DNA from: an uncultured Aquificaceae bacterium
Lineage (GTDB): Bacteria > Aquificota > Aquificia > Aquificales > Aquificaceae
Length of the DNA: 11,692 nucleotides
Direction of reading: 5' to 3'
Assembly (NCBI GenBank): GCA_938002625.1
Contig: CALLAD010000074.1
Coordinates: 1-11,692, forward strand
Under the pieces are notes generated by a model, which saw only the letters and a list, made by a program, of their open reading frames with translations, did no database searches and was not told where the DNA came from. The position numbers and the translations under genes were made by a program. Positions 7,999 to 11,476 of the stretch are shown here, in pieces; position 1 is the stretch's first letter, and each line of letters begins with the position of its first letter.

Positions 7999-9101
7999 TA
8001 GCAGAAGATATTAAATTTATGGGGAGGGCTCTTGAGCTTGCAAAATTAAGAAAGGGCCTTACCCATCCCAATCCCACTGTTGGCTGTGTTATAGTAAAGG
8101 ATGGTCAAATAGTTGGAGAAGGTTATCACGAAAAAGCTGGAATGCCCCATGCGGAAGTTATAGCCCTCCAAAAGGCTGGTGAAAAGGCTAAAGGAGCAAC
8201 CCTTTATGTGACCCTTGAGCCATGTACCCACTATGGAAGGACTCCACCATGTACTGATGCAATAATAAAAGCAGGCTTAAAAAGAGTAGTAATTGCCACC
8301 CTTGACCCAAACCCCCTTGTATCTGGAAAGGGAGTAGAAAGATTAAAAAAGGCTAACATAGAGGTTTTGGTAGGAGTTTTGGAAGAAGAAGCGAAAAAAC
8401 TTAACGAGGATTTTTTCGTTTATATAACCCAGAGGAGACCATATATAACCCTAAAATGGGCACAAAGCATAGATGGGACAATGGCAACAAAAACTGGTAA
8501 TAGTAAATGGATAAGCTCTGAGGAATCACGGGCCTTTGTTCACCAGTTAAGGGCAGAAGCCACGGCAGTGCTCGTAGGTATAAACACAGCTTTGACAGAT
8601 GACCCCCAGCTAACGATAAGAGCCTTCCCTTGGGAAAAACAGCCTGTGAGGATAGTACTTGATCCACAGTTAAAAATTAGAGAGGATTTAAAAATTGTAA
8701 AGGACAGGGAAGCTCAAACCATTGTAATATCAGCGGTGGAAAAGGAAGATAAAATAAAGAGGTTAGAAGAACTGGGAATAAAAGTAATATTGGCACCGTG
8801 GGAGGAGGGAAAATTAAACTTGAAGGAAGTTTTAAGGGAGCTTTACTTTATGGAAATAATGCATATTCTTGTAGAGGGTGGCTCCACAACACATACAACC
8901 TTTATAAAAGAAAACCTTTTTGACCGCCTTTGGGTATTTATAGCTCCCCTTTTACTTGGAGAGGGCAAAAGGATAGGAGACCTTGGCATAAGCCTTATCA
9001 AAGAAGCAAAAAAGTTAAAGCTTAGGGAAATTAAAAAATTTGGTATGGATATAGCTTTGGAGTACATAAGGGAAAATTCTACAAATCTTCAAGCTTCTTG
9101 A
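7995..9101 (+). CDS. ribD: bifunctional riboflavin biosynthesis protein RibD (deaminase/reductase)
   Basis: RibD deaminates the pyrimidine produced by GTP cyclohydrolase II and then reduces the ribosyl side chain with NADPH, two successive steps to riboflavin. The 368-aa protein has an N-terminal zinc deaminase domain with HAE (52-54) and C77/C86 in EPCTHYGRTPPC. The C-terminal reductase domain (about 148-360) shows ITLKWAQSIDG, VGINTALTDDPQLTIR and ILVEGGSTTHTTFI. The start is GTG, overlapping the DUF302 stop as GTGA; an internal ATG (codon 9, 8019) would cut off the first helix. GGAGG at 7977-7981 is 13 nt upstream. No FMN riboswitch fits between the genes. Its last 23 bp overlap the end of trmD on the other strand. 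Confidence 0.97.
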   Translation: MIAEDIKFMGRALELAKLRKGLTHPNPTVGCVIVKDGQIVGEGYHEKAGMPHAEVIALQKAGEKAKGATLYVTLEPCTHYGRTPPCTDAIIKAGLKRVVIATLDPNPLVSGKGVERLKKANIEVLVGVLEEEAKKLNEDFFVYITQRRPYITLKWAQSIDGTMATKTGNSKWISSEESRAFVHQLRAEATAVLVGINTALTDDPQLTIRAFPWEKQPVRIVLDPQLKIREDLKIVKDREAQTIVISAVEKEDKIKRLEELGIKVILAPWEEGKLNLKEVLRELYFMEIMHILVEGGSTTHTTFIKENLFDRLWVFIAPLLLGEGKRIGDLGISLIKEAKKLKLREIKKFGMDIALEYIRENSTNLQAS

Positions 9102-9858
9102 TAGCCCTTTTATGACCAAACTCTTTAAGCCAGTCTTCAAAGTCCATGCCTCTTTTTATGGCTAATACCATTTCTTTTTCTATATCTTTTAAATCCTCTG
9201 GGACAAGGTCTGGTCTTAATCTTAAGGTCCTTTCTATGGAATGCCAAAGTTCCCAAAGTTTTATAAGTTGGTGATTTCCAGAAAGAAGTATGTTAGGTAC
9301 TTTCATGCCTTTAAAATCCGCTGGCCTTGTGTATACGGGTGCTCCCAACCACCTCCTAAAAGAGTCCCTTTTTATGCTTTCTTCGTCGCCCAATACTCCG
9401 GGCAAAAGCCTTGCAATTCCTTCCAAGAGAACCAAAGCAAAAAGCTCACCACCAGCCAAAACGAAGTCCCCTAAGGAAAATTCTTCATCGGCAAGCAAGC
9501 TTATTCTCTCATCCAATCCTTCATATCTTCCGCATATAACTGCAATACTATCAAGCTTTGAAAGGCGATCAAGATGCTCTTGTGTTAGGCTTTTTCCCCA
9601 AGGCTGAGGAATTATAGTATATGGCTTTCCGTATTCTTTTAAAATATGCTCATAAGCATTAAATACGGGCTCAGGTTTTATAACCATACCAGGATGGCCA
9701 CCATAAGCTATATCATCAACTTGCCCTTTATAAGCAAAATCTCTTATATTCACCGTATGTAAATTTAAGGCTCCTTTCTTTATGGCTTGTTTAACTATAC
9801 CGTAGCTTGCATAACACTCTATTATTTGCGGGAAAAGGGTAAAAACAAAAAACTTCAT
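9079..9858 (-). CDS. trmD: tRNA (guanine37-N1)-methyltransferase TrmD
   Basis: TrmD methylates N1 of G37 next to the anticodon, which prevents +1 frameshifting. The 259-aa protein shows the trefoil-knot SAM-binding motifs ICGRYEGLDER (108-118) and SLGDFVLAGGEL (128-139). It also has ARLLPGVLG, the catalytic Asp165 in RDSF, and YTRPADFKGMKVPNILLSGNH near 176-196. In the usual YGGGxGM motif the third glycine is replaced (YGGHPGM, 52-58). TrmD is usually found with rpsP and rimM, but here it is the last gene behind a tyrosine recombinase. Its ATG overlaps the recombinase stop (ATGA) and no Shine-Dalgarno sequence precedes it, which points to translational coupling. Confidence 0.96.
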   Translation of the reverse strand: MKFFVFTLFPQIIECYASYGIVKQAIKKGALNLHTVNIRDFAYKGQVDDIAYGGHPGMVIKPEPVFNAYEHILKEYGKPYTIIPQPWGKSLTQEHLDRLSKLDSIAVICGRYEGLDERISLLADEEFSLGDFVLAGGELFALVLLEGIARLLPGVLGDEESIKRDSFRRWLGAPVYTRPADFKGMKVPNILLSGNHQLIKLWELWHSIERTLRLRPDLVPEDLKDIEKEMVLAIKRGMDFEDWLKEFGHKRAIKKLEDL

Positions 9859-10726: not shown

Positions 10727-11359
10727 TTATTCCTTTCTCTTTCTCTTTTCTAACTCCATGCGTAGAGTGGAAATTTCCATTTCCTTACTCAAAATCTCCT
10801 TATCTTTATCAAGCATCACCCTTTGAAGGTCAAGATCTTTTTGACTAAGCATAAATTCCTTTTCTTTTAAAAGCTCTTGCAGTTCAGTAATTTTCTTTTC
10901 TTTTTCCTCAAGAGCTTCTTTGAGTTTTTGATTTTCCCTTTCCTTTTCCATATATTTTTCCCTTAGATTGCTTAGATCTCTTAAAAGAAATTCCATCTCT
11001 TTTTCCCTTATAGCGAGAAGAGTGTACAAACTGGCAAGTTCATGAAGTAACTGCTCTTTTTGTTGTTCCTTTTGCATTAGGGCAGACATATACGTAGCTA
11101 TAAGACTACCCTCTAAGCTTGATTTTAAACCTTCAAGGTTAGACTGGAAATTTTTTACCTTTTCTTCTTGAAGCATTTTGGATGTTTTCAGGTGTTCCAG
11201 CTCCTCTTGAGTAAGATAAACGTACCATATACCATCTTCCTCTTTACCACCTTTTAATACTCCAGCCTTAATACGATTTTTTACAGTGTTTAGAGATAGG
11301 TCTGTTAACATTGCGTACTCGCTTGCCTTTACTTTGATAGCATCCTTGATATCATCCAT
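10727..11359 (-). CDS. helix-turn-helix protein with long C-terminal coiled coil
   Basis: A 210-aa protein in two parts. Residues about 10-55 form a MerR/excisionase-like winged helix-turn-helix: ASEYAMLTDLSLNTVKNRI, then a KGGKEEDGIWYVYLT wing. From about residue 95 to the end it is highly charged with near-continuous heptads (for example KEKKITELQELLKEKEFML), predicting a long dimeric coiled coil. It ends in the basic tail KRKRKE. I know no specific family. The architecture recalls plasmid KfrA-type DNA-binding coiled-coil proteins, but no homology is claimed. A strong AGGAGG lies 5 nt before the ATG. It leads an operon with the recombinase and trmD and lies downstream of a repeat cluster it might bind. 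A role as regulator or accessory DNA-bridging partner of the recombinase is inferred. Confidence 0.88.
   Translation of the reverse strand: MDDIKDAIKVKASEYAMLTDLSLNTVKNRIKAGVLKGGKEEDGIWYVYLTQEELEHLKTSKMLQEEKVKNFQSNLEGLKSSLEGSLIATYMSALMQKEQQKEQLLHELASLYTLLAIREKEMEFLLRDLSNLREKYMEKERENQKLKEALEEKEKKITELQELLKEKEFMLSQKDLDLQRVMLDKDKEILSKEMEISTLRMELEKRKRKE
10731..10736 (-). promoter_or_regulatory. ribosome-binding site favouring the TTG start of the recombinase
   Basis: AAAGGA on the minus strand lies 6 nt before TTG 10724 and 15 nt before ATG 10715. It overlaps the end of the upstream coiled-coil gene. The spacing favours the TTG start and coupled translation. Confidence 0.6.
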
Positions 11360-11392
11360 GATAGCCTCCTTTTAAGGTTTTGACATAATTTT

Positions 11393-11426
11393 ATATCAAT
11401 AGATATCAGATATCAATGATTGTCAA
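11393..11426 (-). promoter_or_regulatory. promoter/operator region of the HTH-recombinase-trmD operon
   Basis: On the minus strand a perfect TTGACA (11421-11426) is followed by a cluster of GATAT elements. On the plus strand these read ATATCA at 11393-11398, 11403-11408 and 11410-11415, with two palindromic GATATC at 11402-11407 and 11409-11414. With a 17-nt spacer the -10 would be TCTATT (11398-11403), a poor hexamer lying inside the repeats. This suggests a promoter controlled by a protein bound there, perhaps the HTH protein itself (autoregulation, inferred). A second TTGACA, on the plus strand at 11380-11385, has no good -10 and no gene downstream. Confidence 0.5.
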
Positions 11427-11448: not shown

Positions 11449-11476
11449 TGTTAATTTAATTGCGATTATGTTAACA
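11449..11476. other. candidate dif-like Xer recombination site (28 bp)
   Basis: Two 11-bp arms flank a 6-bp centre: left arm TGTTAATTTAA (11449-11459), centre TTGCGA (11460-11465), right arm TTATGTTAACA (11466-11476). The arms are inverted repeats matching at 9 of 11 positions. This 11-6-11 layout is that of bacterial dif, and the right arm begins TTATGTTAA, as in the XerD-binding arm of E. coli dif. It lies 90 bp upstream of the operon encoding a tyrosine recombinase. Single-recombinase Xer systems (XerS, XerH) often have dif next to the recombinase gene. An alternative reading is an operator with two direct TATGTTAA copies 20 bp apart (11447-11454 and 11467-11474). Confidence 0.5.

Follow-up and report, generated by a model that had tools for sequence, protein, structure and literature searches.

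A probable dif site of a single-Xer, apparently FtsK-less Aquificaceae lineage and the likely DNA-binding gene fixed beside it

In those bacteria where Xer recombination has been studied, it is described as FtsK-dependent (PMC5357621). The XerS/difSL and XerH/difH systems use, like the locus considered here, a single recombinase that is often linked to its site (PMC5357621), and both are described as FtsK-dependent (XerS in PMC2958812, XerH in PMC5357621). The archaeal XerA/dif system of Pyrococcus abyssi also resembles the present one, with one recombinase, a 28-bp dif and, in the account of PMC2958812, no FtsK; archaeal xer genes lie beside dif in some cases and apart from it in others (PMC5357621). 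A further arrangement is that of the ColE1 cer site with ArgR and PepA, where a stretch bound by accessory proteins adjoins the core Xer site and decides recombination (PMC5357621). This report concerns a 28-mer in the window, the whole 11,692-nucleotide stretch of DNA analysed, from an uncultured Aquificaceae bacterium. The 28-mer is very probably the dif of a lineage that possesses a single Xer recombinase and apparently lacks FtsK. Features of the window are listed in Table 1.

Table 1. Positions of the probable dif site and of neighbouring features in the window.
Feature	Position	Strand	Remarks
dif left arm, TGTTAATTTAA	11449..11459	+	left-arm columns 1.20-2.00 bits (29 sites)
dif central spacer, TTGCGA	11460..11465	+	loosest block over 29 sites
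dif right arm, TTATGTTAACA	11466..11476	+	window sequence and 29-site alignment
Nine TGAYA/TRTCA copies	11335..11425		candidate HCC operator; runs into first HCC codons
HCC, 210-aa protein with predicted winged HTH and long single helix	10727..11359	-	AlphaFold model, dif linkage
xer, single Xer-type tyrosine recombinase, 289 aa	9855..10724	-	PF00589 and PF02899
trmD, tRNA m1G methyltransferase	9079..9858	-	overlaps xer end

The preliminary description read positions 11449-11476 of the window (TGTTAATTTAA-TTGCGA-TTATGTTAACA) as an 11-6-11 site with inverted arms, and this anatomy stands: as inverted repeats the two arms agree at 9 of 11 positions. The right arm begins with TTATGTTAA, which we take to be like the classical XerD arm. 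The 28-bp layout of two 11-bp arms and a 6-bp spacer is found at 29 sites in the family, with near-fixed arms and a looser spacer. Information content reaches at least 1.28 bits in 20 of the 22 arm columns; in the two remaining columns the choice is between C and T (1.20 bits) and between A and G (1.07 bits). The spacer carries 0.45-1.43 bits at positions 13-17, and position 12 is T at every one of the 29 sites. The two arms agree at 9, 10 and 11 of 11 positions in 8, 12 and 9 genomes, respectively.

The genome set (n = 61) comprised 37 Aquificaceae, including the MAG that contains the window (795,624 bases, 65.7% complete), and 24 genomes from two other families of the order. A search with the pattern TGTTAATATAATNNCNATTATATTAACA, allowing up to three mismatches and requiring a palindromic match on both strands, located the site in 27 of the 37 family genomes, at exactly one place in each; the reversed pattern, which served as the control, had no match across the 61 genomes. 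The reservation that short AT-rich arms might arise by chance is hard to reconcile with these counts. Two more genomes, G018 and G021, carry the 28-mer once Y/R positions are allowed; their sites are known from fetched loci, and the per-genome copy count covers the other 27. The site is thus known from 29 of 37 family genomes, which represent 10 of the 11 genera covered in the family. The 161-base region around the window site also occurs at a single place in its own MAG. The expectation of a single copy is borne out in all 27 genomes counted, and the expected conservation of the arms and of the 6-bp spacing is seen at the 29 sites. Extra one-strand matches with three mismatches occur once each in G004 and G030 and twice in G048, a genome outside the family.

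The pattern did not locate a dif in eight family genomes (G008, G020, G024, G025, G027, G031, G032 and G035). Two of these, G008 and G020, also lack a recombinase orthologue, leaving six of the 35 genomes with a recombinase in which the site was not found (G024, G025, G027, G031, G032 and G035). The contig of G024 ends at the HCC gene, where dif would adjoin. Weak pattern matches in G024 and G027 overlap reading frames and were not taken as dif, and those in G031, which have the same sequences as in G024, were likewise set aside. A separate locus of G031 (L240, 1501-1974) holds an RHH-like gene with a dif-like palindrome of six mismatches about 140 bp upstream; the palindrome is excluded from the counts and may represent either a dif that has diverged or a copy that has moved. 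The recombinase, HCC and the 28-mer were all not found in G008, a genome of the same genus (70 contigs, 99% complete), which may reflect loss or an assembly gap. The tables of Kono 2011 (PMC3025954), the main text of which does not contain the string "aquif", may list a dif for the family, and for this reason the site is not claimed here as unpublished.

The recombinase gene, xer, has a listed start of TTG, with an ATG at residue 4. The complete R-K-H-R-H-Y set claimed for its product is present (R146, K176/K178, H236-x-x-R239, H262 and Y272), the catalytic roles being assigned from a HMMER alignment to XerA. Orthologues occur in 35 of the 37 family genomes; that of G025 has 38% identity and that of G031 is only a 77-residue piece at a contig edge. 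Among the 24 genomes outside the family, distant matches were seen in 18 (22-30% identity, best rows) and none in six. Relatives lie on 16 named contigs labelled Aquificaceae or Aquificota (seven), Thermocrinis (four), Hydrogenobacter (two) and Acidobacteria (one, 65% identity), with two distant ones from other phyla, which places the window in an Aquificaceae bacterium. The gene is the sole PF00589 match in its own MAG. In ten complete or two-contig relatives in which PF00589 proteins were counted, xer is the only tyrosine recombinase of six complete chromosomes (G006, G014, G022, G023, G029 and G030); G013 has two such proteins, G007 and G018 have four each, and the second one of G016 is on a small second contig.

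By sequence, the nearest solved structures are the archaeal XerA 4a8e (7e-12; 292 aa against 289 aa here) and 5hxy (5e-7), the former of which we take to be P. abyssi XerA, its entry being titled XerC-like. The best NCBIfam model is XerA_Arch (NF040815), at 83.5 bits and below its cut-off of 220; the XerC and XerD models score 79.6 and 79.3 bits against cut-offs of 335 and 330, the XerS model 41.7 bits against 267, and the best PHROG match is a generic phage integrase family. On these profile scores the protein is not assigned to the XerA, XerC, XerD or XerS families. Because the 28-mer occupies a single place in each of the 27 genomes counted, keeps its arms and spacing, and is often accompanied by Xer as the sole tyrosine recombinase, the earlier suggestion that it is the dimer-resolution site of this lineage is strongly supported.

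A search for FtsK-gamma was negative in all 61 genomes and positive in 8 of 14 control genomes. The FtsK motor domain PF01580 had matches in 44 of the 61 genomes (31 over the cut-off), all of them partial and confined to profile positions 5-108 of 221, and 44 of the 49 rows come from reading frames that encode either 364-404 or 614-661 aa. Four of the matching proteins were checked by Pfam; three are HerA-like and one is a T2SSE-family (PilT-like) ATPase. The HerA-like three include two fusions of a phospholipase-D-like domain with HerA (615-617 aa) and one protein cut by a contig end. Since FtsK-gamma is absent from the results for all 61 genomes and the four motor matches examined are HerA-like or T2SSE-type, FtsK is taken as not detected in the family, which by its sequences appears to have a HerA-like pump. 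HerA has been suggested as an archaeal analogue of FtsK (PMC2958812). The phospholipase-D-like and HerA fusions lie at L254 625-2475 and L255 187-2031, and reading frames of about this length that match the FtsK motor weakly recur throughout the order.

A dimer-resolution site had been expected to mark the replication terminus, and the skew data do not support such a placement. GC skew, computed at 20 points in two genomes, is weak and follows gene orientation. An orientation-corrected fourfold G-C skew, left minus right, was read within 100 kb on either side of the site in eight genomes (bootstrap errors of 0.015-0.032 per side; the right flank of G022 is about 89 kb, and the chromosome is taken as circular). 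The differences are +0.015 (G006), +0.057 (G007), +0.069 (G013), +0.016 (G014), -0.053 (G016), +0.014 (G022), -0.025 (G023) and +0.048 (G029); the sign expected of a switch thus appears in six of the eight, at best at about 2.5 s.e., and is opposite in G016 and G023. A two-switch fit in three genomes failed to pick out the site: alternative positions scoring at least as well make up 18% (G006), 8% (G029) and 86% (G023). The two sides of the site near 360803 of contig C1 of G023 have nearly the same negative orientation-corrected A-T skew (-0.079 and -0.075), and because both flanks share the same bias this site is not at a strand switch. The gene dnaA was rejected as an origin marker, its distance from the site ranging from 0.4 to 45% of the chromosome in nine genomes. 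Skew is not usable here as proof of a terminus.

The order in the window is site, 210-aa gene, xer, trmD. The site had been placed just upstream of the recombinase operon; an operon does lie downstream, but its first gene is the 210-aa gene (10727-11359), and the recombinase follows. The trmD gene comes directly after xer in many relatives and is outside the dif system. The accompanying idea that dif is kept beside the recombinase gene describes some genomes (site-xer distance 0.7-1.6 kb in G006, G007, G013 and G022) and fails in others, where the distances are 613 kb (G014), 484 kb (G016, which we take to be Aquifex aeolicus), 269 kb (G018), 178 kb (G023, presumably Hydrogenobaculum) and 674 kb (G029, presumably Thermocrinis ruber); the constant neighbour is the gene for the predicted HTH and long-helix protein. 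Because the site lies 178-674 kb from xer in genomes of five genera, the 28-mer is not an operator of the xer operon.

The main alternative raised for the 28-mer, that it serves the downstream operon as a direct-repeat operator and is no recombination site, draws on the repetition of TATGTTAA 20 bp apart in the window and on the position of the site upstream of a promoter-like region. What is conserved among relatives, however, is the palindrome, and the 28-mer is kept beside quite different genes: an AhpC/TSA-family gene in G016, the downstream side of mraW in G034 (similarly in G019), and RHH genes, as well as at places far from xer. An operator of this kind is for that reason very improbable, and the 28-mer continues to be read below as dif.

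The constant neighbour, HCC, occurs once per genome in 22 of the 61 genomes, all of them members of the family. In every one of the 21 testable genomes dif lies 102-120 bp from the KASEYA motif of HCC; in the 22nd genome, G024, the contig stops too early for the test. The xer gene directly follows HCC in 16 of the 22, is elsewhere with HCC still beside dif in five (G014, G023, G029, G030 and G036), and in G005 the HCC-xer order is split by contigs. The dif site is locked to the HCC gene and not to xer. Pfam and PHROGs contain no family match to HCC at E 0.001, Pfam at E 10 gives nothing usable, and NCBIfam gives one match in the coil region, far below its cut-off. The AlphaFold model (mean pLDDT 91.6, pTM 0.40) predicts a winged HTH and a helix of about 159 residues. 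Foldseek with this model returned no match at E <= 0.001, and VIA-align ranks long helices of unrelated proteins, myosin for one, at the top. Of the near matches, all weak, those with a winged-HTH fold are RacA, BldC and Xis. Matches of the HCC profile in the PDB, mainly to coiled coils and RNA polymerase omega, were set aside as compositional, and no HCC relatives were found in virus contigs. In trees of Xer and HCC (19 genomes in both; G023, G030 and G036 left out), 12 of the 16 inner branches of the HCC tree are open, too many for congruence to be judged. Spacer and HCC are not oriented alike in all species: a TTGCNN-like spacer or TTACCA faces HCC at 8 of 21 loci and is reversed at 13, as would be expected if either dif or the gene beside it inverts.

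Between dif and HCC lies an array of short repeats. The stretch from dif to the KASEYA motif contains 136 copies of TGAYA/TRTCA in 21 loci, against 24.9 +/- 4.6 (maximum 38) in 300 dinucleotide shuffles. This stretch takes in the first HCC codons and a -35-like TTGACA; because that TTGACA is the HCC gene's own, part of the array may be plain promoter. Copies per locus range from two to nine (nine in the window, two in G017, three in G009). Six of eight genomes have a cluster of at least six copies within 105 bp at the site, the exceptions being G016, which is without HCC, and G022, with five copies; a scan of 2.47 Mb, part of which overlaps, found no further cluster of this size. Forward copies are spaced most often by 10 bp (17 of 51), then by 7 bp (seven) and 9 bp (five). 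Molecules of BldC and of Xis reportedly form rows on DNA, and RdfS is reported to take up about 10 bp per molecule and to bind both its own promoter and the att region (PMC5859096, PMC11963761).

Other genomes have a different gene in this place. Over the 29 sites, the neighbour is HCC at 21, a ribbon-helix-helix (RHH) protein at five, apparently broken frames at two and none at one. The RHH protein takes the place of HCC in all five genomes of the genera g6 and g9 (G018, G021, G026, G028 and G033); Pfam RHH_1 is found in all three of the dif-side proteins scanned from them, and the three listed C-termini read KRRWFF or KRWKIF. Between dif and the RHH gene there are two near-copies of TTTGTAATACAAA in each of L033, L034 and L058, one weak one in L238, and none within two mismatches in L236. 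In genus g7 (G019 and G034), separate and apparently broken RHH- or coil-like frames lie beside dif in opposite orientation (L035 1492-1857, L036 1539-1779), and in G016 no DNA-binding gene was seen beside dif. An accessory protein is accordingly not essential everywhere, since G016 is without such a gene and the frames of G019 and G034 look broken.

From the anatomy of the site, each of the two near-identical 11-bp arms would be bound by one copy of the recombinase, and strands would be exchanged across the 6-bp spacer with a second dif on the other half of the dimer. HCC may bind the repeat array beside dif and may repress its own promoter, and the resulting nucleoprotein complex could help to pair or licence dif sites as a local counterpart of FtsK. 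That the HCC and RHH neighbours are accessory factors for a single-Xer dif without FtsK is a serious possibility, somewhat short of an even chance. The linkage of these proteins to dif and not to xer suggests, in a cer-like reading, that they are parts of the site. In its fullest form this reading holds, tentatively and with considerable doubt, that Aquificaceae use a cer-like chromosomal dif to resolve dimers without FtsK, that a dedicated winged-HTH/long-helix protein, or in other genera an RHH/coil protein, coats the array, pairs sites by its coil and licenses Xer, and that Pyrovirus-like phages integrate there. The neighbour may instead be an autoregulated regulator or nucleoid protein that is kept by descent and is unrelated to recombination, the site itself still being dif; autoregulation would suffice to explain repeats around the HCC promoter, and dif occurs in G016 with no such neighbour seen and in G019/G034 with frames that look broken. 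Against such an unrelated role stand the persistence of the linkage although the other dif flank and the place of xer vary between genomes, and the filling of the same place by an unrelated DNA-binding domain in two genera. This alternative, too, is a serious possibility, somewhat short of an even chance.

A tolerant form of the 28-mer pattern had two matches among 2.9 million virus contigs. The record IMGVR_UViG_3300005853_000017 (L260 1-4614, L261; 40,321 bases, of which 40,000 were seen) contains one junction only, in which Aquificaceae-like host genes are followed by dif at 1966-1993 and then by about 38 kb of phage. Its host part encodes an M28 peptidase and an ilvE-like aminotransferase; G006 has an aminotransferase of 79% identity to the latter with the same neighbour. 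The phage part encodes a clamp, a terminase, a sub-cut-off capsid match, a D12-class methyltransferase and a 1608-aa DUF927-exonuclease-PolA protein, which matches the description of the 1,606-aa polyprotein of Pyroviruses, a group reported as purely lytic, without integrase or prophage (PMC7689252). PF00589 was not found in the record, and no HCC or RHH gene was seen at the junction. A phage-host junction at dif where no integrase was found hints that the site recombines, and the record is possibly an Xer-dependent provirus in a group reported purely lytic; the shared 28 bases could also favour a false assembly. The traits of an IMEX, an element that uses the Xer of its host, namely a host joined at dif and no PF00589 found, are those of one record and one junction. 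The second match, IMGVR_UViG_3300021973_000005 (L258 8092-8119), is an intergenic 28-mer that differs by one base from that of G016, in an 11.7-kb tailed-phage fragment of 24.6% GC with terminase, portal and protease.

These two records, and the resemblance of the recombinase to phage integrases too, might suggest that an integrated element left the 28-mer behind as its attachment site and that it is not a chromosomal dif. Such an origin is extremely improbable: the site has a single place per genome in 10 of 11 family genera, xer is the sole tyrosine recombinase of six complete chromosomes, and the phage in the first record, for which no integrase was found, seems to make use of a host site. 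A thermophile family with dif, one Xer and no FtsK found offers a way into pump-free dimer resolution, the likely DNA-binding genes fixed to dif are candidates for the missing helper, and dif is suggested as a host site for viruses reported purely lytic.

Compared with XerCD/dif-FtsK, the family dif shares the 11-6-11 site and differs in having one recombinase, near-symmetric arms and no FtsK detected. At 289 aa the recombinase is shorter than XerS and XerH, which have about 355 aa, and XerH is set apart by length and description (PMC5357621); in addition, no FtsK was found here, and the constant linkage is to a gene other than xer. Archaeal XerA/dif is set apart by lineage, which is bacterial here, by the 83.5 bits against the family cut-off of 220, and by the likely DNA-binding gene and repeat array beside dif. 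The Xis/RDF, BldC-type and RacA proteins have a winged-HTH fold (PMC5859096, PMC11963761) like the one predicted for HCC, to which HCC would add the helix of about 159 residues; HCC has no sequence-family match. Finally, the cer site is plasmid-borne with about 180 bp of accessory DNA (PMC5357621), whereas the site described here is chromosomal, with about 100 bp of adjoining DNA, an unrelated protein and an inferred function.
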